Positions 1 to 15,433 of a DNA stretch of 20,263 nt are shown piece after piece. Numbering within the stretch: the first letter of the stretch is position 1; every line of letters starts with the position of its first letter. The stretch spans positions 1-20,263 of the IMG/VR virus record IMGVR_UViG_3300010149_000244. One strand, written 5' to 3'. A program made the translations under genes and the position numbers. The stretch comes from a virus. The notes below the pieces were generated by a model that saw only the letters and a program-made list of their open reading frames with translations, did not search any database and had not been told where the DNA came from.

Positions 1-1479
1 ATGAATGCGTTTATCCAAGAAATGGATAGCAAAATGGCGGCAAAGTCATTCAAGTACTTCTTTACAGAAATACTGGGCTTTCATTACAGTCATCACCATG
101 AATCATGGGAAACAGGACTAAACGAACACCGTTACTACTGTGTTAAAGCAAGTCGGGACCACGGTAAATCCACTTTGTTTATGGCCTATGCTCTTTGGAT
201 AGCCGCATTCAAACCGGGAACACACATCATGATTTTTTCTCACTCCCTTGAACAGACACTTGAACACATGCGATTTATCCGCAATAACATTGAGAGTGCT
301 GACATTTTGCGACACCTAAAGCCCGAAGGTGGGCGACCGTGGGCTAAGTCTTACTTTGAGTTCACCAACGGTAGCCGTCTAATGGCTAAGTCGGTTGGTG
401 GTGCAACTCGTGGTTTCCACCCCGATGTGGTAGTATGCGACGATATTCTTTGGGGTACAACTGGTGGAGAACTACAGCGAGCCGCTGACTGGTTCTACGG
501 TGTTTTACTCCCTGTTCTGCACCACTCATCTCGTTTGATGATGGTAGGTACACCGTTCAGTTACAACGATTTGTACGCCGAATTGGAAGAAAAAGAAACA
601 TTCCGTGTCGAGACATACCCTGCAATTGACGGTGAAGGTAACGCTCTTTGGCCGGAACGGTGGAATCTCGAAGCACTTGAACAACGGCGTATGTCAATGC
701 CCGCTATCCAATTCAGCCGTGAATACCTGTGTGAACCTATTCACGATGTTGCGAGTATGTTCCCCGCTACTATTCTCAATGAGGCTCGTAACACAGATTT
801 GGTATTACTCGATAGGGCTGATACCGAGTATGATGAAGAGGGTAATCCCGCTGGCGTATTCGGTCAACACTTTATCGGATGGGACACAGCAATCGCTTCG
901 GATAAGAACGCTGACTACACAGCCATGCTTGTTTTGCGTACACCGCCCGGTGAGAATGTAAAACAAATTGTTGGCATAGTTCACGAGAAGGGACTTGGTG
1001 GTTTGGCACAGAAAAAACACATTCTTACTCTCAACAGTCGTTTTCAGCCGGATTTAATTGAACTTGAAGGTAACAATTTTCAGCGAATGTTTGCCGCTGA
1101 ACTTCAAGACATGAGAGGGGATATTCCTATTCGCACCTTTATGACAACTCGCCAGCGCAAAGAAAGCATGTTCATGTCTTTGCTTATGGCGTTTGAACAA
1201 GGACAAATCCAATTACCATATGGTGATGAGCGAAGTCGTACATTTACACATAAATTAGAAGAAGAACTCAACCGATTCGGTATGCAAAAAAATGGGCGAC
1301 TTGAATCGGTGGGAACGCACGATGACTTGGCAATGGCACTTGCTTTAGCGAACTGGGGAACGAAAGAGTTCAAAGGTTCAGTACAACTACTCGATGATAT
1401 ACTACCCGGATTGGATGAGTATATCGGCGGAAAAACACACAGAAACAAAGGAACTGGCGACGGATGGTTAATACCATGA
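1..1479 (+). CDS. terL: Terminase large subunit (packaging ATPase and nuclease)
   Basis: This is the DNA-packaging motor: an ATPase that drives DNA through the portal into the prohead, fused to a nuclease that cuts the concatemer. The 492 residues match usual TerL length. Walker A is S51-R-D-H-G-K-S-T58 with K56 as the ATP-binding lysine. Walker B is the hydrophobic run before C146-D147-D148, with Asp in the place of the usual catalytic Glu. The C-terminal RNase H-fold nuclease shows G293-W-D295-T, then a second acidic cluster L352-I-E-L-E356-G-N, and finally H440-D441-D442. These three acidic patches are the typical metal ligands. The ATG is the first base of the window, so upstream sequence cannot be checked and a longer N-terminus is possible, although length and motif positions look complete. 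No small terminase gene is recognisable downstream; it may lie to the left. The call is secure. Confidence 0.95.
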   Translation: MNAFIQEMDSKMAAKSFKYFFTEILGFHYSHHHESWETGLNEHRYYCVKASRDHGKSTLFMAYALWIAAFKPGTHIMIFSHSLEQTLEHMRFIRNNIESADILRHLKPEGGRPWAKSYFEFTNGSRLMAKSVGGATRGFHPDVVVCDDILWGTTGGELQRAADWFYGVLLPVLHHSSRLMMVGTPFSYNDLYAELEEKETFRVETYPAIDGEGNALWPERWNLEALEQRRMSMPAIQFSREYLCEPIHDVASMFPATILNEARNTDLVLLDRADTEYDEEGNPAGVFGQHFIGWDTAIASDKNADYTAMLVLRTPPGENVKQIVGIVHEKGLGGLAQKKHILTLNSRFQPDLIELEGNNFQRMFAAELQDMRGDIPIRTFMTTRQRKESMFMSLLMAFEQGQIQLPYGDERSRTFTHKLEEELNRFGMQKNGRLESVGTHDDLAMALALANWGTKEFKGSVQLLDDILPGLDEYIGGKTHRNKGTGDGWLIP

Positions 1480-2533: not shown

Positions 2534-3832
2534 ATGTGGGGTAGTGCAATCGTTGGGGATGTGTATGATGCACCTGCTATTGTTGGTGATGACTTCACTA
2601 AAAGTGTGTACAACACTCTCACTCAACATCCCGATTATGTGCATAAGTCTGTACCGGTCAAAAAAGAATCAAGTTTATTTTTTAATGAAGAGATAAAATC
2701 ATATAACTTTCCCAAAAATGGTGATGGTTGGCTTGAGTCAACATACGGTAAAAACGCAGATTCTATAATTCGTATGTGTCGTAAAATGCGAAGAAACGAC
2801 AAAAGTAATCGAGATATGATTGATGCTATTATTGATGATGTGAGAACCATAAAAGCAATGGAGGTTGAAGCAACAATTAACAATTTATCATGGAGTGATG
2901 GACTACATGACACTATTCGCTACATGGGGTTAAACGACCGTTCATTAAAATCACTGCGAAAGTTTGGAGAGTCGAGAAGCACAGGACTTCAACAGGCTTG
3001 TCAAATGTTCTTGAAAGCCACATCTGTTCTTTCTATGTTAAATGAAATGGATGATTGGGGTGTAGAAGAACAAGAAAATTGGGTTGATGCTATGCAGATG
3101 CGTAAGGATGCTCAAAAAATGTGGCGTGGAACTTTACATCAAATTGATTCTATTTCAAAAGACGATAAAACAACATTAGAGTTTGTTTCAAAACAATTGG
3201 ATGAAAACGGTGAATTGAATAGTCGTGAAATTGTTCGTCGAGGTGTAGGTGTTCTACACAAGTCCGTTACGCCCAGTAAAGTCGGTATGTTGATAAAAAT
3301 GTACGGTGAAGAATTAGACATATACCGAGGGCATAGTCGTGGCATGTTTGTAAAAATGGGTACAAACGGTTTGATTATCAAAGACATTTGGGCTTATGCG
3401 GCAGGTTTTCTTGATGCTGATGGTAGTATATTTATCAGTGAAAGAGGTGAACCAAGAGCGACATTTGTAGCAACTGGTGATAGAGGTAAAGACCAATGCG
3501 AAAGTTTGCATAAAGCACTTGGATGTGGTCGTTTAGTCCTTAATCAAAAAATACATAAAAATAGTAACCGAAGTCTTCACCGTCTTGTTTTTCAATCAAA
3601 AGACGATTTACGCCAATTACTCAAAGGTATTCTACCACACTTACAAATGAAATCGCTACAGGCAAAGGCTGTTTTGACATTCATTGATTCAAAAGACAAG
3701 TTGAGAAAAGACGAATTACATAAACTCGTAACCTTCAATAATTGGAAAGATGATAAAAAGAAGGCCGACAACCTCTTGTCTAAGTGGGGCTTGGATGCTG
3801 ATACCATAGGTGGATTTGCGGAGGGATTGTAA
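2534..3832 (+). CDS. Protein with C-terminal LAGLIDADG homing-endonuclease domain
   Basis: This protein of 432 residues has two parts. Residues 1 to about 280 are mostly helical, charged and unrecognised. Residues 287 to about 400 carry one LAGLIDADG motif, A290-G-F-L-D-A-D296-G-S, followed by the expected strand and basic-residue pattern. D296 corresponds to the metal-binding acid. A single motif means the enzyme would act as a homodimer cutting a pseudo-palindromic site. Such domains drive copying of their own gene into unoccupied alleles, but here it is fused to a longer protein and sits in frame between terminase and portal. The start at 2534 follows TGAGGTAG by about 6 bases. The stop overlaps the portal ATG (TAATG). 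The N-terminal part may be an older structural or packaging protein that acquired the endonuclease, or a DNA-targeting region. Endonuclease domain: confident. Activity: unproven. Confidence 0.8.
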   Translation: MWGSAIVGDVYDAPAIVGDDFTKSVYNTLTQHPDYVHKSVPVKKESSLFFNEEIKSYNFPKNGDGWLESTYGKNADSIIRMCRKMRRNDKSNRDMIDAIIDDVRTIKAMEVEATINNLSWSDGLHDTIRYMGLNDRSLKSLRKFGESRSTGLQQACQMFLKATSVLSMLNEMDDWGVEEQENWVDAMQMRKDAQKMWRGTLHQIDSISKDDKTTLEFVSKQLDENGELNSREIVRRGVGVLHKSVTPSKVGMLIKMYGEELDIYRGHSRGMFVKMGTNGLIIKDIWAYAAGFLDADGSIFISERGEPRATFVATGDRGKDQCESLHKALGCGRLVLNQKIHKNSNRSLHRLVFQSKDDLRQLLKGILPHLQMKSLQAKAVLTFIDSKDKLRKDELHKLVTFNNWKDDKKKADNLLSKWGLDADTIGGFAEGL

Positions 3833-5607
3833 TGGCAGACGATGATAGTAGAATAAGTAGATTTTTAGGCGCACTTGGGAAACCATTCAAGCGTAAGCAA
3901 TCCCCAACTCCTACCATGCCACTTTGGACAAGTGGTATTCAAGAACCAGTTATGGCGCAAGGAATTACCATACCTGCTTTGTATGCTGTAAGCACAGAAT
4001 GTTTGATTCTAAGAACTGTACTTTCAAAAATACGACAAGAGATGTTCCGAAGAGGACATTATTTTGAAAAGCGTTTTCATAAAAAATGTAACGATTGCGG
4101 TGAAGAATACCAACATGATGTTGAGTCTTGTACTACATGTGGCGGGCAAGTGCGTGACCCCGACCATGATGAATTAACTTATGTGAAATGGTTACTCAAT
4201 CAAGAAAACAGTATGGAACAAGCGTTTATTCATATTCTAAATGAAATTGAAAATGACCTTAATATTGTTGATGATGCGTTCTTAATTTTAGTCAAAGAGT
4301 ATTATATTGACCCCGAATCGAAAGAAGTAGCGTTTTTCCGTGTTAAAGAACTTATTCGTGGCGACCCTATTTTCATGCGTATTGTCGCTGACAAGCGTGG
4401 TGTTCGTGGTGGGCGATACAAAGTCTGTCGAATCCATAGGGACCAAGTTAAGACACATGCAGAAAGTGATACCTGTGAAGTATGCGGTAGCGATTTACAT
4501 GATGTTCATTATGTCAATATGGCCGGTAGTGGTAAAACACAGTATTTCATTGAAGGTGAAGTGCTTCACTTGAGTAAATACAATCCGTCTAAACTCTATG
4601 GTCGTTCACCTGTCAATACAATGTGGCGACAAGCAATGACACTTACAGCAATGGACAACTACATGTACACTTCTTATCAAAAGCGAAGAATGCCAAAAGG
4701 TATTATTTCAGTTACGACTGATAACCTTGAGTCAATGAAATCGTTTTGGAAGTCTGTTGATGAAAAAATGGAGCGTGACCCGCATTACATTCCAAAGGTT
4801 GGTATTGAAAGTCAAACAGGCCGTGGTGGTGTCAATTGGATTAAGTTTATGGACACCTTAGAAGAGATGCAATATATCGCTGTTCGTGATGAAATACGCA
4901 ATCGCATCGCCGCTTACTTTGGTGTGTCAAGCGTCTTTATGGTTGACAGTGGTAAATCCGGTGGTTTGAGTAATGAAGGTATGCAAATACTTGTTACAAA
5001 TCGTGCTGTTGAGTTTGGACAAAAAACTTACACCGAAGTTTTGTTTCCTAAAATGCTGAAACAAATGGGTGTTCACGATTGGAAACTCACACTTTATCCA
5101 AATGAAGAAGAAGACGAAATCACTCGACTACGCCGTGATGAACAAGAACTCAATGTTGCACAGCGTATGACACAACTTGGATTCACTGCTGATTTAATTG
5201 ATGGTGAATCAAGTAGCGATATTCGATTCGTCTATCGTAAACCTCCACCTCAACCAGCCGCACCTCCGGGCGGCGCACCACCTCCGGGCGGCGCACCACC
5301 TCCTATGATGCCACCGGGCGGCGGTATGCCACCGCCTATGATGGGTGGCGGTATGCCAATGGGTGGCGCACCCATGATGAGAGGTATGCCTCCGGGTATG
5401 CCAATGGGTGGTATGCCAATGCCACCACCTCAACCGGGTGGACAGGGTATGGGACTTCGTAATAGAGGGCCAGCCGCACCTCAACGCCGTACATCGGCTG
5501 GTAGTGGCTCTCCTGTAACAAGTGTACAACAAAGAGGGCCACAGCCCTCAATAGGACAACAAAATAGTAACGCTCTCATGAATGCAAGAAACTTCAAGGG
5601 TGCATAA
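3832..5607 (+). CDS. Portal protein with two zinc ribbons
   Basis: The portal forms the dodecameric ring at one capsid vertex through which the terminase pumps DNA and to which neck proteins attach. The 591 residues, the position two genes after the terminase and before the protease and capsid genes, and the core with S-K-L-Y-G-R-S-P and repeated helices after it fit the family. Two zinc sites are inserted in the N-terminal half: C86-x2-C89-x10-C100-x2-C103, and C199-x2-H202-x12-C215-x2-C218. Such ribbons are unusual in bacterial phage portals. Residues about 471-542 form a low-complexity Pro/Gly/Met-rich tail made partly by an 18-base tandem duplication. The start overlaps the preceding stop (TAATG) and has GGAGGG upstream. 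The portal call rests on context and overall pattern; a database profile search would settle it. Confidence 0.85.
   Translation: MADDDSRISRFLGALGKPFKRKQSPTPTMPLWTSGIQEPVMAQGITIPALYAVSTECLILRTVLSKIRQEMFRRGHYFEKRFHKKCNDCGEEYQHDVESCTTCGGQVRDPDHDELTYVKWLLNQENSMEQAFIHILNEIENDLNIVDDAFLILVKEYYIDPESKEVAFFRVKELIRGDPIFMRIVADKRGVRGGRYKVCRIHRDQVKTHAESDTCEVCGSDLHDVHYVNMAGSGKTQYFIEGEVLHLSKYNPSKLYGRSPVNTMWRQAMTLTAMDNYMYTSYQKRRMPKGIISVTTDNLESMKSFWKSVDEKMERDPHYIPKVGIESQTGRGGVNWIKFMDTLEEMQYIAVRDEIRNRIAAYFGVSSVFMVDSGKSGGLSNEGMQILVTNRAVEFGQKTYTEVLFPKMLKQMGVHDWKLTLYPNEEEDEITRLRRDEQELNVAQRMTQLGFTADLIDGESSSDIRFVYRKPPPQPAAPPGGAPPPGGAPPPMMPPGGGMPPPMMGGGMPMGGAPMMRGMPPGMPMGGMPMPPPQPGGQGMGLRNRGPAAPQRRTSAGSGSPVTSVQQRGPQPSIGQQNSNALMNARNFKGA
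5263..5298 (+). repeat. 18-base tandem duplication in portal tail
   Basis: Two identical copies of CCTCCGGGCGGCGCACCA lie head to tail (5263-5280 and 5281-5298), each encoding P-P-G-G-A-P. Shorter degenerate copies (GGTATGCC, CCACCG and similar) continue to about 5455. The segment is far more G+C-rich than its surroundings. It likely arose by replication slippage and varies in length between relatives. Confidence 0.9.
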
Positions 5608-7021: not shown

Positions 7022-10000
7022 ATGGTAGCAGAACAATTCAATATCGCTAAAGACGAATTACTGCTTTCATTAGCCGATGGTAATGACTTAGCGTTTAGTG
7101 CCGCTGAATACATTATTGCTTGGGAATCTCTTAACAAAGCCCCTACAGACACACTTTCAAAGTCGTTAAAATATACGGCTGAACTAATTCAAAAAGAAGA
7201 AGACAAAGCCGCAAAAGTAGAAAAAGTCAAGTCCTATAAAGAAGGTCCGGGTTTTCTTCTTGCACATCATCATACTCATGGTGAACAGACAAACCATGTT
7301 TGGAAGGACAGTTTATCGGGTGCTGACAATGTGAGAGAATCTCACGCTGTATGGCCTCGGTATGTACCTACTTCATCTCATCCATATCGAGAGCATAATT
7401 ATCCTTTTCACCATACTAATCACCCTCTTTTGCGAATGGACTCAAGTAAAGGTAATGCTGGTTATGTTGAAGTTTTACGAAGTCATATTTTTGGCGGTCA
7501 TTCTAAAGAAGAAGCGCAAATGGAAAAAGAGTTTCAAAAGTATTTAGAAACGAAGAAAAGTCCATTGGTACACGGATATAACGGTAAAAAAATCCTCGGC
7601 TCGTTGAGACATCATAAATCAAATTATAGCCATCAACATGACCTTTACGAGCGAGATTACCAACGCTGGAATAAACTTAACAGTGATTTGAAAGACCAGT
7701 ATCTCGCTGATGGTCGTTCAGCAGAAGAAACTGAAAATCGTTTACGAGTGGACCATTTTAATCAAAGAGCAAAGCAGTGGCAAAGCGGCGGGTATGTTGT
7801 AGATGAAAACGGTGATAATCATGCTGTTGGATTAGGACAAGAGGGGTATCACCTTGGTCTTGAATGGCTTAATCCCGAAGAACGCACAGCCGTAATGCGT
7901 CATCTACATGAAAAAGGAGTTGACAATCATAATGAAATAAAGTTACCAAATGGTGAGTTTATCCCTACGGCTCGATTGACTTGGAACAATTTAATGCGTC
8001 GTACACCGGAAAAGAACTGGGCGTTAAGAGCAAGCGGTCACTTTGGCCCAAACGGTCATTTACGACAAGAAACACTTGAGGGTGACTTTAGACAAGGTGA
8101 TAACCGTTTTTCACAAGGTGTAATCGGAGAGGCGGCTCATACTTATGAAATAGGAGGACAACCAATTTCACATTACATTGCAGAAGCGATACATAATCGC
8201 TTTGGGATAGAACTACCCGATGGTGATAATGAAGGAGTCGGGAAACCATTTGACATTCTACCAAGACTCGGTTTACATTCAAAGCCGGTTCAAGACAGTT
8301 ACTCGTTGAAAGACTTACGGGCTGGTACATTTAAACACTATAAAAAATCAAAAGGAATGGACCCGAAGCATACTCGTATGCCAATGGAGGATGTTCTATT
8401 CCTTGCAGGTTATGACCCTAAAACACGAAAGCCGCTTCTTAATCACCCTATATACGGAGAAATGGATGGTCCGATTATCCCGCTTCATGACTTAGAACAG
8501 ATGGAGTCGGAGGCTAAATCTCATGGCTCTTTGTCTTCATTGGCTAAAGAGATGAGAACTGACCTCGCTTATTTACAATCTCCGCATGGTCCTCATCCCG
8601 ATGAAGAAAAACCTAAGTTTTGGCGATTTGATAAGGGTGGTAATCATACTATAGGACCAGCAAAGTTTTGGAGTAAACCTTTCGCTCAAGTTGGTGGTGC
8701 TGATATGACTTTGGCTACTTACAATGAGAATGTACACAGTGTTGCTCATAATGAAGACGAATTAACAGAAGAAGAAAAAATCGAACAGGCGTATGCAAAC
8801 ATAGCGAGTAATGAGCCTGTGGATATTACCGGTGGGGCGCAAAACGAAGACACTGCACACATCCCAACTCCGTTTCAACAAAAAAAGAAAGACATGTCAT
8901 CCCCCTCTACTTCGGGGTTATTTGAAGTAAATGAGCAACATCACGGCCAACTACACCCCAATCCAATTAACATGGCTTTAGGGATGCACTTTGGGCCGGA
9001 GAAATCAAGAGAAATAGGACAAGTTGAAAAACAAAAAGGAGGTGCTACCAAGTTTGTAAGGTTTCAAGACGGTGATATTCTACAAAATCTATTCTCACCT
9101 GCTAATGCCTTTACAAAAACCAGTAGCGGTGATAAGCATAATTGGACATTACATCAATCAACTTACAACCCTCAACTACTACATTCTCTCCGTACAATGA
9201 GTAATGATGAAAAAAAGAAACTTAAAGTTGATACTATTAAACAAACTTTACATTCACATAATCCATTAAAAACATCTCAACCCGAAAGCACCTATGGAGC
9301 GCATACATCGGATGCACCTATTGGTGAGAAAGCAAGAGCAAATCATTGGCGAAAAACAATGTTGGGGCAAACATTAGACCCCTACAAACCGCAGAAAAAC
9401 TCGGTTCAACCATTGAAGGACTTAATGAGTGGAAACATTCCTGTAAGTTTTGGAGTGGACCATGAGGATTACATGGATTTTTTGGGGTGGGGTGTTAAAC
9501 AACCCAATTTTAACAATGTAAAAAACTACATTACTTCGCCGGATAGCGCAAAAGCCTTGCGTATTTTGACAGCAATAGCAAAAGAAACTGGGAGTAATTC
9601 TCCTAATCGTATTCTAAACAACATTAACGATTTGACAGAAGACAACCCAATGTATGCTGATATTAAACATCGTATGGAAAAAGAGGGTTCATACCTTAAC
9701 GACGGGGATATAGACGAACTTAAAGGGTGGTTAAATAGTTTTGAAGTACAATTACGGCAGAAAAAGGGTAAAGAGGCGGAAGCGAAAAACCAACGCAGTA
9801 AAACCAGCATTCAAGCAACAGAAGACACAACATTTACTACAAGAACTATTGACTCCGCATTGAAGTTTGGTGGTATGCTTCCTGCAATGCAAAAAGAAAA
9901 AGAATTGAGTGAGCGATTGAATGTTATTACTGAAATGATACAATACATGGATTCACCGGAACAGGTACAATCATTAAGACGGGAATTAGATGAAGGGCAA

Positions 10001-12868
10001 GTAGAATTGAATAGGTTACAACGCCGTTCAAGTGAATCTGCTCTTGGTAAACAACCTACACGCTGGAAAACCGATGCTGGTTTTATTGACAAAGTGGCTA
10101 AAAATAGTCGTAACGCTGTCCTTGAAGCCGCAAAAAAATTATTACCTATAGTTATGGAACATGACCCAAATCATTTTGACATTAACGACCCGGAGAAGTT
10201 TATGGCGAATCATAACCGTTTAATGTATGACGCTGAACGGTGGCTTGCAAATGCAGACCATAGTGTACACGGTATCAAAGCACCTGTTTACAGAACATCG
10301 GATGAAAGTAAAACAGTTACTTCAAAGCAAAAAGGCTTTCATCGTGATGTAATGAGTCACATGCTCGACAACAGTTTTGAATTAAACGGTAACATGACAC
10401 CCGATGAAGTCTTAGAAGGTATGGGATTAGAAGGTAAGACAAGTCAACAAAAAGCACGATTAAGAGAACATGTACAAAAAATAATTGATGAGTCAAATGT
10501 AAGAGAAGTTCCGTTGCGTGTTGCGACTGTCGGACAGTTAATGACGAGTGGTAATTTTGATGACGAGTTTTCACTTCATCGTATTCACGCTGATGAACAA
10601 TTCGCTCAAGACTATCAAGACGGTGGAATACACACTGCTATTGATAACGCTCAATCGAGAACTAAAAACTGGAAAGCACATCCTATTCATGGTATAGTAG
10701 GTACTGTCGGACAGCATAGATTTGACTCATCGCAATATGGTAGTAATATGTCAAACAACGGTTTATCCTACTATCCAGCCGGTGGTAAACTCGATGTGCA
10801 TAACAGATTAGGTGCTGGTAAAGGTGGTAAAAAGCCTTACACGAGAAGAACAAAAAATTACCTTGATAGTATTGTAAGTTTAGATATTGATGCTGTAAAT
10901 GCTGATAATATGACACCTACGCAAGAAATTGTGAGAACGCTTGGTATTAACGGTGAACCAGTACCTATTGGTGGGGTTAATCCTTCTTCATTCGGAATTA
11001 TGCCTACACACACTGGTGCTGATGTAGTCCACTCTTCTGCTGTCCCTCAACAGTCATCATTTGGTATCGAGTTTGATTCTCAAGGACAACCATCGGTCGG
11101 TACTTACACTGAACCTCAATTATACCATCCTACTTGGCAAGGTGCATTAGAGGAACTCCACGGCACAGATATGACAAATCATTTGTTGGAAACATTACCA
11201 CCACATCAAAATCCTACTCCACCTTTTATGGATTATGACAAAGAAACTTTTGATATATTCGGAGAAAACAACCCTACTGCTCTTAACTTGAGTGAAATGA
11301 GTGAATATATTACTTCTCTTTTAAATCCCGATGTGCTTTTGACAAAAGCCGATGATGCTGAATGGTGTCCTCCGGTAAGACCGATGCACCGCATATTCGA
11401 TTTAAGTGACCTTGAACACCTAAGAGGGTTTAGCGGTTCATGGGTAGTCAGTAAGTGGTACGATGGTAAGCGAGTTATTATCGTACAAAACGATAATGAA
11501 ATCACTACTTATGATGAAAATGGGCGCAAGGTTGGATTAAAGAAAGCATTCAAAGAAAGCCTCGCTGAATTAAACGACAATAACTTTGTCATTGATGGTA
11601 TTGTAGGTGAAGAAGACTTGAACATTATTGATATTATCAACTATGATGATACCAATGTTGCTGAAATGTTAATGCATGAACGCATGAAAGTTCTAAGAGG
11701 GCAGTTCGATAGCCATGAAAATGTCATCATTCCCGGCCCGCATGATACAAAAATGACTGATGATGAGGGTCTTGAAGACGCTGTTAAAATCCTACAAGAA
11801 GACCACGGTATAGTTTTGTTACGAGATAATAAATCCACATACATGAAAGGAGAGCGTCGTCATCCTAAGTGGTTGTTATTGCGTGAAAGTCGTGATTTTA
11901 ACTTTATCATTCTTGACCGTCGAGGTAAAGGACCATACACATATCAACTTGGTGCAGGGCCGATTCTTGACGGTGAAGCATTAGGTAATCGTGCCGTCAC
12001 ATACAAGAACAATTTCTACATGGATGTAGGTACAGCCCACAGACAACAAAGAACCTTCAAAGTTGGCGATATAGTAAGAGCAACTGTAACAGGAGTTACA
12101 AAAAAGCGTAGAAAAAATCGAGATGTGTTCAATGTACAAGTGCGTGAAATAGAAAGTGAAGGTGAAGGTGAAGGTGCGGCCAGTGCTGAATCATTAGACC
12201 TTATGACAAAATCGTTTGCACCTTTGCTTATACCCCATGATATAGAATACAATGATGGTGTATTACAAGTTATACTCAAAGGTGTAGATACAGTATCGTA
12301 TCAAGTTACACATATGGATGACAACTGGTATCTACATGACCCTTCTTCGGCTTTAGGTGATTTGACTAAATCGAATTATTCTCTCACTCTTGCTGAAAGC
12401 CTTCATCCGTTTTGGCATTCAGTAGCACCGTTGATGCTTGACGGTCATCTCGTAAAAACAGAAATGGATGAAAAGAAAGTGCCAAGTCGTAAAAGACAAG
12501 AAGAACAATCAGCCGGAGTTCTTGATGCTAAAGACGATAACCGCCTTCTTAAACCATCAACTAAGAAGGCTCTTGATGTAATTAGTCGTGCTTTAGACAG
12601 ACTCGCTAAAGAAAAACTTACTTGGACAGGGCCGAAAGGTTTGGGTATTGACATGGCTACACCGGTAGAATCACCAAGTGGTCCTACGAGATTAACAGAA
12701 GAAAGTAACTTACCCGACTATGATGGTAAAGTAAGACCGGATGAAAAGGATGGTGTTGATTCGGATGATAAAAAGAAAAAACCCATTACGCATGTTGAAA
12801 TGAAGACTGATGCAGACGAGTCTATCGTTTTAGATGATGAAGACGGTACTCCTACTCTTTCAGTGTGA
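7022..12868 (+). CDS. Giant head-region protein with degenerate DNA-ligase-like domain
   Basis: This protein has 1948 residues, more than a quarter of the window. The N-terminus has a short helical segment, then a His-rich stretch (about residues 82-138). A long unrecognised middle includes a probable coiled coil near 950-1005. Residues about 1450-1715 follow the layout of ATP-dependent DNA ligases: S1477-K-W-Y-D-G-K-R (motif I region), V1523-I-D-G-I-V (motif III), D1594-H-G-I-V-L-L (motif IV), K1616-W-L-L-L-R (motif V), then an OB-fold-like V-G-D-I-V-R-A-T-V. Key residues are altered: the K-x-D-G lysine position is Trp with Lys one residue earlier, motif III DGE is DGI, motif IV Glu is His, and motif V K-x-K is L-x-R. 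The domain is therefore probably non-catalytic, perhaps DNA- or nucleotide-binding. The tail is acidic. Position between portal and protease suggests a virion or ejected protein. Start has GGCGGTGA. Confidence 0.85.
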   Translation: MVAEQFNIAKDELLLSLADGNDLAFSAAEYIIAWESLNKAPTDTLSKSLKYTAELIQKEEDKAAKVEKVKSYKEGPGFLLAHHHTHGEQTNHVWKDSLSGADNVRESHAVWPRYVPTSSHPYREHNYPFHHTNHPLLRMDSSKGNAGYVEVLRSHIFGGHSKEEAQMEKEFQKYLETKKSPLVHGYNGKKILGSLRHHKSNYSHQHDLYERDYQRWNKLNSDLKDQYLADGRSAEETENRLRVDHFNQRAKQWQSGGYVVDENGDNHAVGLGQEGYHLGLEWLNPEERTAVMRHLHEKGVDNHNEIKLPNGEFIPTARLTWNNLMRRTPEKNWALRASGHFGPNGHLRQETLEGDFRQGDNRFSQGVIGEAAHTYEIGGQPISHYIAEAIHNRFGIELPDGDNEGVGKPFDILPRLGLHSKPVQDSYSLKDLRAGTFKHYKKSKGMDPKHTRMPMEDVLFLAGYDPKTRKPLLNHPIYGEMDGPIIPLHDLEQMESEAKSHGSLSSLAKEMRTDLAYLQSPHGPHPDEEKPKFWRFDKGGNHTIGPAKFWSKPFAQVGGADMTLATYNENVHSVAHNEDELTEEEKIEQAYANIASNEPVDITGGAQNEDTAHIPTPFQQKKKDMSSPSTSGLFEVNEQHHGQLHPNPINMALGMHFGPEKSREIGQVEKQKGGATKFVRFQDGDILQNLFSPANAFTKTSSGDKHNWTLHQSTYNPQLLHSLRTMSNDEKKKLKVDTIKQTLHSHNPLKTSQPESTYGAHTSDAPIGEKARANHWRKTMLGQTLDPYKPQKNSVQPLKDLMSGNIPVSFGVDHEDYMDFLGWGVKQPNFNNVKNYITSPDSAKALRILTAIAKETGSNSPNRILNNINDLTEDNPMYADIKHRMEKEGSYLNDGDIDELKGWLNSFEVQLRQKKGKEAEAKNQRSKTSIQATEDTTFTTRTIDSALKFGGMLPAMQKEKELSERLNVITEMIQYMDSPEQVQSLRRELDEGQVELNRLQRRSSESALGKQPTRWKTDAGFIDKVAKNSRNAVLEAAKKLLPIVMEHDPNHFDINDPEKFMANHNRLMYDAERWLANADHSVHGIKAPVYRTSDESKTVTSKQKGFHRDVMSHMLDNSFELNGNMTPDEVLEGMGLEGKTSQQKARLREHVQKIIDESNVREVPLRVATVGQLMTSGNFDDEFSLHRIHADEQFAQDYQDGGIHTAIDNAQSRTKNWKAHPIHGIVGTVGQHRFDSSQYGSNMSNNGLSYYPAGGKLDVHNRLGAGKGGKKPYTRRTKNYLDSIVSLDIDAVNADNMTPTQEIVRTLGINGEPVPIGGVNPSSFGIMPTHTGADVVHSSAVPQQSSFGIEFDSQGQPSVGTYTEPQLYHPTWQGALEELHGTDMTNHLLETLPPHQNPTPPFMDYDKETFDIFGENNPTALNLSEMSEYITSLLNPDVLLTKADDAEWCPPVRPMHRIFDLSDLEHLRGFSGSWVVSKWYDGKRVIIVQNDNEITTYDENGRKVGLKKAFKESLAELNDNNFVIDGIVGEEDLNIIDIINYDDTNVAEMLMHERMKVLRGQFDSHENVIIPGPHDTKMTDDEGLEDAVKILQEDHGIVLLRDNKSTYMKGERRHPKWLLLRESRDFNFIILDRRGKGPYTYQLGAGPILDGEALGNRAVTYKNNFYMDVGTAHRQQRTFKVGDIVRATVTGVTKKRRKNRDVFNVQVREIESEGEGEGAASAESLDLMTKSFAPLLIPHDIEYNDGVLQVILKGVDTVSYQVTHMDDNWYLHDPSSALGDLTKSNYSLTLAESLHPFWHSVAPLMLDGHLVKTEMDEKKVPSRKRQEEQSAGVLDAKDDNRLLKPSTKKALDVISRALDRLAKEKLTWTGPKGLGIDMATPVESPSGPTRLTEESNLPDYDGKVRPDEKDGVDSDDKKKKPITHVEMKTDADESIVLDDEDGTPTLSV

Positions 12869-12908
12869 AAGAAACATTCTATATACCATGACAATGAATC
12901 GGAGGGTA

Positions 12909-14300
12909 ATGTTGTCCTTAAAGCGACCCACCTCCGGCATTGCTCTCATTAAGGGCAGTTCCGATATGGTTATCGCTGGCTACGCATCAGTTGAACTGGT
13001 GGACAAGCAAGGCGACCTTATTACTCGTTCAGCACTAAAGGATGCATTTGGCGGATTCATGAAGAGTGAGAAGTTCCGTAATGTTCAACTCGCTCACTCA
13101 AATATTCAAGTTGGAGAAGTTATTGACTCCTATGTAGATTCAAATGGTCGGATGTGGAAGTCCGAAGTTGATGATGCCGGTATGTTTGTCGTTGTTTCAC
13201 TTCGCAACGATATTGAAAAGGCTCGTGAAGTGGCCGCAGAAATCCGTAAAGGTAATCTGCAAGGATTTTCCATCGGTGGACAAGCATTCAAGAGAGTGCG
13301 AAAATCGGATGGGGAACATGGAGACTACCAAGAAATTAGTAAAATGGAACTGCACGAAATAACGATATGTGAAAAAGGGATTAACCCCGAAGCGCAGTTT
13401 CGTATTTTAAAGGAGGACACCCACATGACAACAGAAAATGATTTGAATAATGTAATGAGCAGACTTGAAGCACGACTTGACGCTATGGAAAAAGGCGAAA
13501 TGCCTCCCGGCCTTAAGGAACATATGAACGATAAAAAAGACGATTCCGACGATGAAAAGAAGGAAAACCCATTCGCCGCAAAAAAAGACGAAGAAAAGGA
13601 TGACGAGGATATGAAAGACGACAAAATGTATGCAAAGAGCGAGTACAGTGATGTAATTACTGCTGAATACCTAAACTGGATGGAGGACACTCTCAAATCC
13701 GCTGGTGTTGACACTATGCAAGCACGAACACACTTCGATAATTTGGAAAAGGCGCAACTTGGCGGCTTCGACAACCCCGATGCTGTTGATGGTGCTGACT
13801 ACTTCGCCGGACAAGTCCGAGGTCGAGGTCAAGAAAACGGTTCACCTTCAACCGGTGCAATCTCCGCAATCTCTTCAACTGGTGGTAAAACACCATCCGG
13901 CGCACTTGGGCCTGTTTCAATGGCTAAGGGTTACATTAACCCAAGCAATGTTTCAGCATCCGATGTTGAAGCCGCTTACGAAGTTTACAAAGCCGCCGCA
14001 ATGGAACAAGGATTCCGTGGCGACCTTGAATCTCAATTCGCATCTCGCTTTGCAGAAGAACAAAAAATTGCAAAGCATGAAGCAGAAAAAGCCGAGTTCG
14101 ACGCTCGTGCGCCTCTTAACGAAGTCATGAAGTCAATTAACGCACTAAGTGAGCGTATTGATAACATTGGTATTCAAGGAACATCAATTCAAAAGTCGGC
14201 TTCTTCATCTAATGTTGAAGTCCCATCCACACAAGACTTGAGTAACATGTCTTGGGATGAAGTACACAATCTCGCCGGTTCGGTCATTCGAGGGGCTTGA
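12909..14300 (+). CDS. Prohead protease fused to scaffold (U35/HK97 type)
   Basis: This is the maturation protease that cleaves scaffold and capsid N-termini inside the prohead. From the ATG at 12909 it has 463 residues. Residues 1-170 are the protease: catalytic His in L-A-H63-S-N, Ser in G-F-S121-I-G-G, and an acidic partner in the E147-L-H-E150 strand, followed by the typical I-N-P-E-A. Residues 173-463 are scaffold-like: coiled coil, a Lys/Asp/Glu-rich stretch, then Ala/Glu-rich helices, ending with N-M-S-W-D-E-V-H. I chose 12909 because GGAGGG lies just upstream. Spacing is short, so the adjacent TTG at 12912 is a possible start, and ATGs at 12888 and 12894 are alternatives without a ribosome-binding site. 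An in-frame internal start at 13425 should make scaffold alone. It lies directly before the major capsid gene. Confidence 0.9.
   Translation: MLSLKRPTSGIALIKGSSDMVIAGYASVELVDKQGDLITRSALKDAFGGFMKSEKFRNVQLAHSNIQVGEVIDSYVDSNGRMWKSEVDDAGMFVVVSLRNDIEKAREVAAEIRKGNLQGFSIGGQAFKRVRKSDGEHGDYQEISKMELHEITICEKGINPEAQFRILKEDTHMTTENDLNNVMSRLEARLDAMEKGEMPPGLKEHMNDKKDDSDDEKKENPFAAKKDEEKDDEDMKDDKMYAKSEYSDVITAEYLNWMEDTLKSAGVDTMQARTHFDNLEKAQLGGFDNPDAVDGADYFAGQVRGRGQENGSPSTGAISAISSTGGKTPSGALGPVSMAKGYINPSNVSASDVEAAYEVYKAAAMEQGFRGDLESQFASRFAEEQKIAKHEAEKAEFDARAPLNEVMKSINALSERIDNIGIQGTSIQKSASSSNVEVPSTQDLSNMSWDEVHNLAGSVIRGA
13411..13416 (+). promoter_or_regulatory. Internal ribosome-binding site for free scaffold
   Basis: AGGAGG, preceded by further A residues, lies 8 bases before an in-frame ATG at 13425 inside the protease gene. 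It is among the best matches to the anti-Shine-Dalgarno in the window and sits exactly at the boundary between protease and scaffold regions. This suggests an intentional second start rather than chance. Confidence 0.75.
13425..14300 (+). CDS. Predicted free scaffold protein (internal start)
   Basis: In-frame translation from the internal ATG at 13425 would give 291 residues identical to the C-terminal part of the protease fusion. It starts with a helix (about residues 4-23), followed by a very acidic/basic Lys-Asp-Glu stretch, a G/S-rich linker with T-G-A-I-S, and long Ala/Glu helices, typical of scaffolds. It ends with the N-M-S-W-D-E-V-H peptide, which may dock on the capsid protein. The arrangement parallels phage lambda, where Nu3 scaffold is made from an internal start in gene C. 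The strength of AGGAGG and placement at the domain border are seen; actual production is inferred. Confidence 0.6.
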   Translation: MTTENDLNNVMSRLEARLDAMEKGEMPPGLKEHMNDKKDDSDDEKKENPFAAKKDEEKDDEDMKDDKMYAKSEYSDVITAEYLNWMEDTLKSAGVDTMQARTHFDNLEKAQLGGFDNPDAVDGADYFAGQVRGRGQENGSPSTGAISAISSTGGKTPSGALGPVSMAKGYINPSNVSASDVEAAYEVYKAAAMEQGFRGDLESQFASRFAEEQKIAKHEAEKAEFDARAPLNEVMKSINALSERIDNIGIQGTSIQKSASSSNVEVPSTQDLSNMSWDEVHNLAGSVIRGA

Positions 14301-14332: not shown

Positions 14333-15433
14333 ATGGCACGAGACTACATACGAAGCGTAACTGACATGGAACGGTACTTTTACGGTGCTGGTAATGCAAT
14401 GGGATATTCCTACAGCGGTAGCGAATTGCTCAAGGCTGACAGCCCAATGATGAGTACTACAGCAGGAACTTACCAAGCGATTTATGGTCGCAAGGTTTGG
14501 TCGCAATTGAACCAAGAGTTCAATGCATTCTCAATTCTACCAAAGCGACCTTGGGAACGCAGTGGATGGCGAGTCATCACTGAACGACCTTCGTTCAGCG
14601 TTGGTGGCGGTGTTGCAGAAAACGCAACTCTACCGGACACTACCAAGCCTACCTTCCAACACATTGCCGCAAAGCCAAAGACGATTGTTCACACATTCGA
14701 CATGAGCGAAACCGCAATGTTCCTTGCTGACAAGGATGACGGACTGGGTGACATTCGCTCAATCCTCAAAGAAGAAATGGGTAAGCACCACGCCGAGCAT
14801 ATCAATAAAATGTTGCTCGTTGACAAGGCTACCGTTGCTGGAAACGATTTCGAGTCTCTTGACCGTATCGCTACTGGCCTCGTTGCTGGTTCAGCAGAAG
14901 ACATCTACTCGATTGACCGAAGTGAAAACTCTTGGTCTGTTGCAGAAGAAGACTCCAACGGTGGTACTGACAGAACTCTTTCTCTCGACCACTTGGACAG
15001 TATTTTCCAAAAGTGTTGGACTCGTGGTGGTAATCCAAAGGTTATCCTCACTGGATATGACACTTTGATGCGCCTTCAACAACTTCTACAATCGCAACAG
15101 CGTTTCATGGAAGAAAAGCGTATCACCCCTACCTACAATGGTGTTAAGGGTGTACCGGGAATTGAAGCAGGATTTATCGTTGCTACTTACAACGGTGTTC
15201 CTATCATCCCATCTAAGGATGTTCAAGCAGACACATTGAGCCGTATGTATTTCCTCGACACGGATTACCTCTACTTCTCTACTGCTATCCCAACGCAATA
15301 CTTTGAGTCCGGTATCGAAACCGGCGACCCATTCGCAATCAACCGTCTTGGACAAGAAGGAATGTATCGAACTATGGGAGAACTATGGACTACTTTCTTC
15401 GGAGGACACGCTTCAATTCGTGACCTAAAGTGA
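14333..15433 (+). CDS. Major capsid protein (HK97 fold)
   Basis: This is the shell-building protein of 366 residues. It follows the protease/scaffold gene. The N-terminal region (about residues 1-60) is helical with M-S-T-T-A-G and could be the part removed during maturation, although no cleavage site is provable. The centre shows the usual HK97-type alternation: a segment F-S-I-L-P-K-R-P-W, E-N-A-T-L-P-D, a strand with T-F-D-M-S-E-T-A, then helix E-M-G-K-H-H-A-E-H-I-N-K, and a later P-I-I-P-S-K-D strand. The codons favour C-ending forms (AAC, GAC, TTC), unlike the A+T-rich genes to the left, as expected for a highly expressed gene. Start ATG at 14333 has GGAG 10 bases upstream; a GTG at 14324 is less likely. 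The fold is inferred from pattern and context. Confidence 0.9.
   Translation: MARDYIRSVTDMERYFYGAGNAMGYSYSGSELLKADSPMMSTTAGTYQAIYGRKVWSQLNQEFNAFSILPKRPWERSGWRVITERPSFSVGGGVAENATLPDTTKPTFQHIAAKPKTIVHTFDMSETAMFLADKDDGLGDIRSILKEEMGKHHAEHINKMLLVDKATVAGNDFESLDRIATGLVAGSAEDIYSIDRSENSWSVAEEDSNGGTDRTLSLDHLDSIFQKCWTRGGNPKVILTGYDTLMRLQQLLQSQQRFMEEKRITPTYNGVKGVPGIEAGFIVATYNGVPIIPSKDVQADTLSRMYFLDTDYLYFSTAIPTQYFESGIETGDPFAINRLGQEGMYRTMGELWTTFFGGHASIRDLK

Follow-up and report, generated by a model that had tools for sequence, protein, structure and literature searches.

The IMG/VR virus record IMGVR_UViG_3300010149_000244 (20,263 bases), referred to here in its full length as the window, encodes a giant protein of 1948 amino acids (aa) that carries a degenerate ATP-dependent DNA ligase near its C-terminus. 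To judge from its residues, this domain, designated the pseudo-ligase, is almost certainly catalytically dead. We consider it reasonably probable that it has been retained, within a protein encoded with the head genes, as a module for non-covalent binding or scaffolding. A first-pass annotation made from the letters of the window had proposed a degenerate, inactive ligase located between the portal and protease genes. Homology, fold, and residue loss support this interpretation, including the open reading frame (ORF) at positions 7022-12868 and the order of the ligase motifs, whereas two of the motif residues had been misassigned. The domain consists of a nucleotidyltransferase (NTase) part and an OB-fold part.

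7022..12868, + strand: giant late protein, 1948 aa, with the pseudo-ligase near its C-terminus (ORF list; homologous ORFs)
11360..11887, + strand: NTase part, residues 1447-1622 (Pfam PF01068, AlphaFold2 model, fold match)
11888..12166, + strand: OB-fold part, residues 1623-1715 (276-residue alignment to 2cfm; MAFFT alignment with the HGTV-1 ligase)

Homology and fold of the pseudo-ligase

Relatives were collected by scanning IMG/VR with the domain or with the major capsid protein (MCP). This provided 308 loci, 296 of which contained the domain, some being overlapping pieces of one contig. The scans returned the best 80 of 136, of at least 557, of at least 531, and of 387 matches, and deeper relatives were missed. 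Residue counts were based on 160 distinct sequences plus the window (161 rows), and a diverse alignment of 68 of these rows was obtained by removing rows shorter than 280 residues or at least 90% identical. Since several scans used conserved peptides of the domain, its conservation was partly selected, including in the sets used for block identities and dN/dS. The residue counts were therefore repeated on the loci fetched by the MCP alone, which served as a control for this bias.

On its own, the window scored below the cut-off of the Pfam family DNA_ligase_A_M (PF01068; 16.4 bits with the entire protein and 23.6 bits with the isolated domain, cut-off 26.2), and a phmmer search of the PDB retrieved the Thermococcus DNA ligase 4eq5 with an E-value of 0.0036. 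PF01068 was matched by all 68 diverse relatives at E<=0.01 (best E-value 1.6e-8), and its cut-off was passed in 17 of 38 relative records (4/10, 6/10, and 7/18). The intact ligase of HGTV-1, used as a positive control, scored 93.3 bits, and no match to PF01068 was found in HVTV-1. The two NCBI DNA-ligase models most often matched were hit by 63 and 62 of the 68 members, the window remaining below their cut-offs. In a search of the PDB with the family profile, the top seven sequences were all DNA ligases (E 6.1e-7 for 4eq5), and snurportin chains came next (E 0.013-0.024).

The AlphaFold2 model of the domain was poor when built with 19 close sequences (pLDDT 52.7) and reached a pLDDT of 88.2 and a pTM of 0.81 with the 68-row alignment. 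The 50 PDB chains listed by Foldseek for this predicted structure were DNA ligases or ligation complexes (best E-value 5.9e-13). VIA-align superposed the model on the Pyrococcus ligase 2cfm over 276 residues spanning the NTase and OB-fold parts (Z 21.6, rmsd 5.5) and on human LIG1 over 175 residues of the NTase part (Z 20.7, rmsd 2.3 Å). A chance resemblance to ligases was ruled out by the residues found in the relatives, the PF01068 matches, the PDB profile matches, and the fold match. Together, these results confirm that residues ~1447-1715 form a true ATP-dependent DNA ligase core comprising an NTase and an OB fold, and both profile search and structure prediction thus bear out the ligase assignment of the first-pass annotation.

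The best fold match of the model in BFVD was A0A516LT18, an 827-aa protein (24% identity, E 3.2e-22), which, from the modelled fold, is possibly another lineage of the same pseudo-ligase domain. No record resembling A0A516LT18 turned up in the INPHARED phages in four additional tblastn searches. Together with the initial one, these searches, which used five members of the domain, returned nothing beyond five chance-level Klebsiella phage records (E 4-8, one query), the whole giant protein had no tblastn match in the same collection, and two scans of the genome_contigs collection detected no relative.

Loss of the catalytic residues

The motifs were mapped by MAFFT alignment with the HGTV-1 ligase, which is intact (K-V-D-G-Y-R, L-D-G-E, E-E-G-I-I-V-K, and W-Q-K-R-K).

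11381..11398, + strand: PMHRIF strand, residues 1454-1459, matching the P-M-L stretch that precedes ligase motif I (entropy, HMMER)
11447..11473, + strand: motif I remnant V-S-K-W-Y-D-G-K-R, residues 1476-1484 (HMMER, MAFFT, row counts)
11588..11605, + strand: motif III remnant V-I-D-G-I-V, residues 1523-1528, with I1527 at the Glu position (MAFFT)
11621..11644, + strand: motif IIIa remnant N-I-I-D-I-I-N-Y, residues 1534-1541 (HMMER, MAFFT)
11801..11827, + strand: motif IV remnant D-H-G-I-V-L-L-R-D, residues 1594-1602, with the Glu position at 1596 and the Lys position at R1601
11828..11872, + strand: motif IV-V loop NKSTYMKGERRHPKW, residues 1603-1617 (entropy 0.57 bits)
11870..11884, + strand: motif V remnant W-L-L-L-R, residues 1617-1621, with the first Lys position at L1619 (MAFFT)

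In motif I, W1479 (11456-11458) occupies the position of the catalytic lysine, and G1482 and R1484 are retained. The HMMER alignment with 4eq5 agreed with MAFFT on this placement, W1479 being aligned to the lysine with no gap. Lysine was present at this position in none of the 157 readable rows (W 82, M 55, Y 9, F 6, L 4, I 1; 4 rows gapped). The lysine had been described as displaced by one residue. The neighboring position, 1478, is occupied by lysine in 78 of the 157 readable rows and mostly by V, H, A, D, T, L, I, or S in the others, indicating that the lysine has not merely shifted. K1478 was thus ruled out as a shifted nucleophile.

The glutamate of motif III, which aligns with I1527, was replaced by I, V, F, or M in all 158 readable rows (3 rows gapped), and the counterpart of the D-G-E sequence across the relatives is D-x-[I/V/F/M], in agreement with the initial reading of D-G-I. 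Likewise, the K-x-K of motif V aligns with L1619 and R1621, as had been read from the window. The first of these positions was L, M, V, or I in 68/68 rows, and the family consensus is [L/M/V/I]-x-[R/K/other]. Motif IV differs from the earlier reading: the glutamate aligns with position 1596 rather than with H1595, and R1601 corresponds to the lysine. Position 1596 itself shows no constraint (D 52, E 42, K 25, G 15, and others; n=161), with glycine in the window.

The same losses were found in the loci fetched by the MCP alone, with the motif I lysine in 0 of 104 rows (3 gapped) and hydrophobic residues at position 1527 in 105/105 and at position 1619 in 107/107. The comparison of relatives therefore indicates that the lysine was lost throughout the sampled lineage.

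Conservation and selection

Majority identity was calculated per 50-residue block for 59 distinct sequences that had been collected with the domain as query. It was 0.75-0.86 for residues 1451-1700, versus 0.42-0.67 for residues 1-1450, and 0.76 for block 1701-1750. The dN/dS ratio, which is to be read as rough, was 0.011-0.048 for the NTase part in eight pairs of sequences, whereas in the same pairs residues 1-1440 gave 0.135-0.317 and residues 1716-1948 gave 0.081-0.169. In a second set of pairs, six of which were shared with the first, the ratio of the NTase part was below that of the MCP (0.057-0.145) in 8/8 cases. It was also below that of the portal in 6/7 pairs and below that of the catalytic part of the protease in 6/8, and in 6/8 the domain had a lower dN, taken alone, than the MCP. 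These sequence comparisons suggest a constraint on the domain comparable to that on the capsid protein. Decay of the gene restricted to this virus was rejected, since the lysine was absent from every readable relative and the domain is strongly constrained.

The most conserved element is PMHRIF, with a mean entropy of 0.20 bits over residues 1453-1459, followed, among the stretches measured, by the motif IV-V loop (0.57 bits; mean of the NTase part, 1.38 bits). R1484 was invariant in 157/157 readable rows and, together with D1602, Y1607, R1613, and W1617, in 68/68 rows of the diverse alignment. The PMHRIF, G-x-R, R-D, and STYM..G.RHPKW stretches presumably surround what was the active-site and nick-binding cleft of ligases. 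In the window, the net charge is -11 for the NTase part and +8 for the OB-fold part; among the 68 members, the respective medians are -7 (range -20 to +8) and -3 (range -13 to +11).

Genomic context

The giant ORF is located in a block of head genes in which the order is large terminase, portal, small genes, giant protein, S78 prohead protease, and MCP.

1..1479, + strand: large terminase subunit (Pfam scan)
3832..5607, + strand: portal protein (Pfam scan and comparison with HVTV-1)
12834..14300, + strand: prohead protease (Peptidase S78), immediately 3' of the giant ORF and overlapping it as listed
14333..15433, + strand: MCP, SU10/HVTV-1 type

The neighborhood was analyzed for 153 distinct complete homologues of the giant ORF (median length 1916 aa, with 195-233 residues on the C-terminal side of the domain), each count being restricted to the loci with enough flanking sequence. 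The prohead protease gene was immediately downstream in 146/146 loci and the MCP gene was downstream in 121/121. The portal gene was located at most 4 kb upstream in 92/94, as expected from the proposed location of the pseudo-ligase between portal and protease. The two misses correspond to the only short ORFs containing the domain, L069 (543 aa) and L284 (838 aa), versus ~1900 aa usually; these are candidate assembly errors or split genes. Conversely, the pseudo-ligase domain was present in 114/114 of the MCP-fetched loci with at least 4.5 kb of upstream sequence (28 of the 142 loci had less and were left out). This constant neighborhood and the selection acting on the domain suggest a role in the head or prohead, and the giant protein is likely to be part of the virion or prohead.

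Several additional features of the block were observed. Conserved lysines flank the pseudo-ligase: K1442 is a lysine in 72/72 rows, followed mostly by S/E/A/N and D/E, and K1730 is a lysine in 72/72, followed mostly by S/A/G (identical rows and rows below 40% length removed). The domain may therefore be excised by cleavage. The residues on the C-terminal side of K1442 are variable in more distant relatives. In the MCP, K-A-D at residues 34-36 (numbered from 14333) was invariant in 65/65 rows filtered in the same manner and is found as S-K-A-D in the HVTV-1 MCP; it is a candidate cut site for the prohead protease. The portal contains a zinc-ribbon-like insert with CxxC pairs at residues ~81-109 (Pfam DZR, E 0.0042, below cut-off). 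The ORF at 2534-3832, in the terminase-portal gap, is possibly a homing endonuclease insertion, since its C-terminal part weakly resembles LAGLIDADG proteins (E 0.06, below cut-off). The best matches of the terminase (1-1479) in the phage collection were Bacteroides phages (28.8%), whereas the MCP and portal matched haloarchaeal viruses, a difference that would be accounted for by a mosaic origin of the head genes.

Relationship to magroviruses and their annotated ligase

The MCP and the portal are closest to those of the haloarchaeal virus HVTV-1 and its relatives (37% and 29% identity, respectively, to HVTV-1). The family B polymerase PolB was detected in 10 of 12 related records, including the two in which the domain matches that of the window with 100% identity, and related records reach 109 kb. 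The Magrovirales are viruses of marine Poseidoniales with genomes of 90-110 kb that encode PolB and are related to the Druskaviridae (PMC12999244; excerpts of PMC8651126). The affinity of the MCP and portal to HVTV-1, the presence of PolB, and the record lengths fit this order. The viruses therefore look like magroviruses, which are not known outside metagenomes; the phage collection contained no magrovirus record matching the domain or the giant protein.

An ATP-dependent DNA ligase is listed among the replication and repair genes of magroviruses (PMC12999244; excerpts of PMC10768690 and PMC10160649) and is also reported for them in PMC7318539. The latter describes, for a contig of group A magroviruses, ligase and prohead protease genes in a stretch matched by a single 678-bp read. 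Across the 38 records searched (48-109 kb; 10+10+18), which are possibly fragments and in some of which the giant ORF is cut by the contig end, PF01068 matched no other ORF. RNA_ligase PF09414 and NAD ligase PF01653 were each found in 0 of 16 records. A second ligase in the same viruses was thereby rejected for the families and records searched. Since the arrangement of ligase and protease is the same and no other ORF matched PF01068, the published magrovirus ligase is, from these comparisons, very probably the ORF described here. The published gene is listed under replication and repair, whereas this ORF lies among morphogenesis genes and lacks the catalytic residues.

The fold, and the annotation of the gene as a ligase, were already known. 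We found no statement that the ligase is inactive in the magrovirus literature covered, which did not include the original description of 2017. A literature search for described dead ligases listed papers on TRIM/RING ubiquitin ligases, degraders, and pseudoenzymes. Within this coverage, from which key source papers were missing, the lineage-wide loss of catalytic residues combined with capsid-level constraint in a giant protein of the head region was not found in print.

Possible roles of the pseudo-ligase

The pseudo-ligase shares with the archaeal ligases 2cfm and 4eq5 the association of NTase and OB folds, the order of the motifs, the P-M strand, the D/E-G-x-R sequence, and the motif IV-V loop S-x-Y-x-x-G-x-R-x-x-x-W. 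It differs from them by the loss of the catalytic lysine, the motif III glutamate, and the first lysine of motif V, and by fusion to a giant head-region protein. It is also ~24 residues shorter than the HGTV-1 ligase between motifs III and IIIa. In addition, Pfam scans of six giant proteins reported no N-terminal ligase DNA-binding domain of the archaeal/LIG1 type, and no other Pfam domain reached its cut-off in these proteins, the weak matches including a T6SS effector family in one of them (E 0.47).

In the absence of the catalytic lysine, the enzyme-AMP intermediate should not form, and the domain should therefore act by binding. We propose that an ATP-dependent ligase core of the archaeal/eukaryotic type lost the chemistry of adenylylation before the divergence of the magrovirus-like viruses sampled. 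Hydrophobic residues have taken the place of the lost ones in the presumed former active-site cleft, with R1484, R1601, D1602, and R1613 being kept. During assembly of the head, packaging, or ejection, this cleft might hold a ligand, with candidates being a 5' end or nick of DNA, a nucleotide, RNA, or a partner protein. We lean slightly toward the former active site being a ligand-binding cleft rather than mere filler.

The m3G-cap-binding domain of snurportin-1 offers a precedent for binding by a dead fold, since it is a non-catalytic ligand binder with a nucleotidyltransferase fold and no OB domain. The corresponding family, PF21974, was weakly matched by 6 of the 68 members (best E-value 4.9e-6), these matches being weaker and rarer than those to ligases, and snurportin-1, unlike the pseudo-ligase, is a eukaryotic nuclear import adaptor. 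A literature search for snurportin and the nucleotidyltransferase fold turned up nothing related.

Several observations weigh against retention of the domain as a binding or scaffold module. The block at residues 1851-1900, in the C-terminal tail, is as conserved as the domain (0.81). dS approached saturation in several pairs and was lower for the MCP than for the domain in 8/8, which is why the dN/dS ratios are rough. With hhalign, the family profile did not align significantly to a single sequence, the intact ligase of HGTV-1 (E 0.27), and the motif map consequently depends on the MAFFT and HMMER alignments. Only gene order suggests that the giant protein is in the virion, and residue conservation is what points to ligand binding. 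Finally, the net negative charge of the NTase part disfavors DNA as the ligand, although the OB-fold part has a charge of +8 in the window.

Among the specific roles, a clamp internal to the virion is possible but doubtful: the dead ligase would bind a 5'-phosphate end or a nick and hold or protect the terminus of the genome, during packaging or after ejection. This role is attractive because the motif I arginine and the OB fold are kept, and the motif IV-V loop is almost invariant; the charge of +8 on the OB-fold part of the window also speaks for it. The retained arginine and loop positions presumably lie on the nick and 5'-phosphate side of ligases, and R1613 has, we believe, the same spacing to Trp as R771 of LIG1, the residue mutated in 7l35. 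The acidic NTase part, the negative median charge of the OB-fold part, and the apparent absence of a ligase DNA-binding domain argue against a clamp.

Because the NTase part is net negative and the OB-fold part is mixed, binding of proteins or scaffolding is nearly as likely as clamping of DNA ends. A purely architectural or protein-interaction fold, recruited for scaffolding or assembly of the head and interacting with the portal, protease, or capsid protein, is thus a similarly tentative proposal. It would agree with the constant neighbors, the acidic NTase part, and a constraint at about the level of the capsid protein. However, conservation is strictest in the stretches that we take to flank the former active site, suggesting a ligand cleft beyond mere packing.

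An early effector resembling polyvalent proteins, co-injected to act on host replication or defense, for example as a decoy for ligase partners, appears unlikely. DarA of phage P1, an internal head protein that is cleaved by the head protease and co-ejected (excerpts of PMC12810830), resembles the giant protein by analogy alone. In HVTV-1, the slot between the portal and head-assembly genes and the prohead protease is occupied by gp115, a large protein of 1313 aa annotated as a zeta toxin, but homology between gp115 and the giant protein was undetectable by blastp or phmmer. Moreover, the ligase-like domain alone stood out in the six giant proteins, and no PIP-like motif was found with the one pattern searched. 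By eye, gp115 (L098:6539-10480) has a P-loop-like stretch near its N-terminus and an ADP-ribosyltransferase-like C-terminal end; an excerpt of PMC8651126 credits HVTV-1 with an ADP-ribosyltransferase, the gene not being named in that passage.

It is very improbable that the domain is an active ligase or nucleotidyltransferase relying on unusual chemistry: despite the published annotations and the glutamate at position 1596 in 42/161 rows, no readable row has the motif I lysine, its neighbor at 1478 varies (K, V, H, A, D, and others), and the motif III and V residues are gone.

Rather than an enzyme, what is read as the DNA ligase of these viruses is thus probably a binding part put to new use. 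More speculatively, a lineage of marine archaeal viruses may have turned a ligase into a component of the virion, whose remodelled site recognizes a genome end, a nick, or another ligand. If so, these viruses would lack a ligase of their own, in contradiction to the published descriptions of their genomes, and the view of magroviruses as encoding a working ATP-dependent ligase would need to be corrected in favor of dependence on the ligase of the host. The pseudo-ligase would then provide a clear viral case of the fold of a replication enzyme that was disarmed and yet kept, among head genes, under selection at about the level of the capsid protein.

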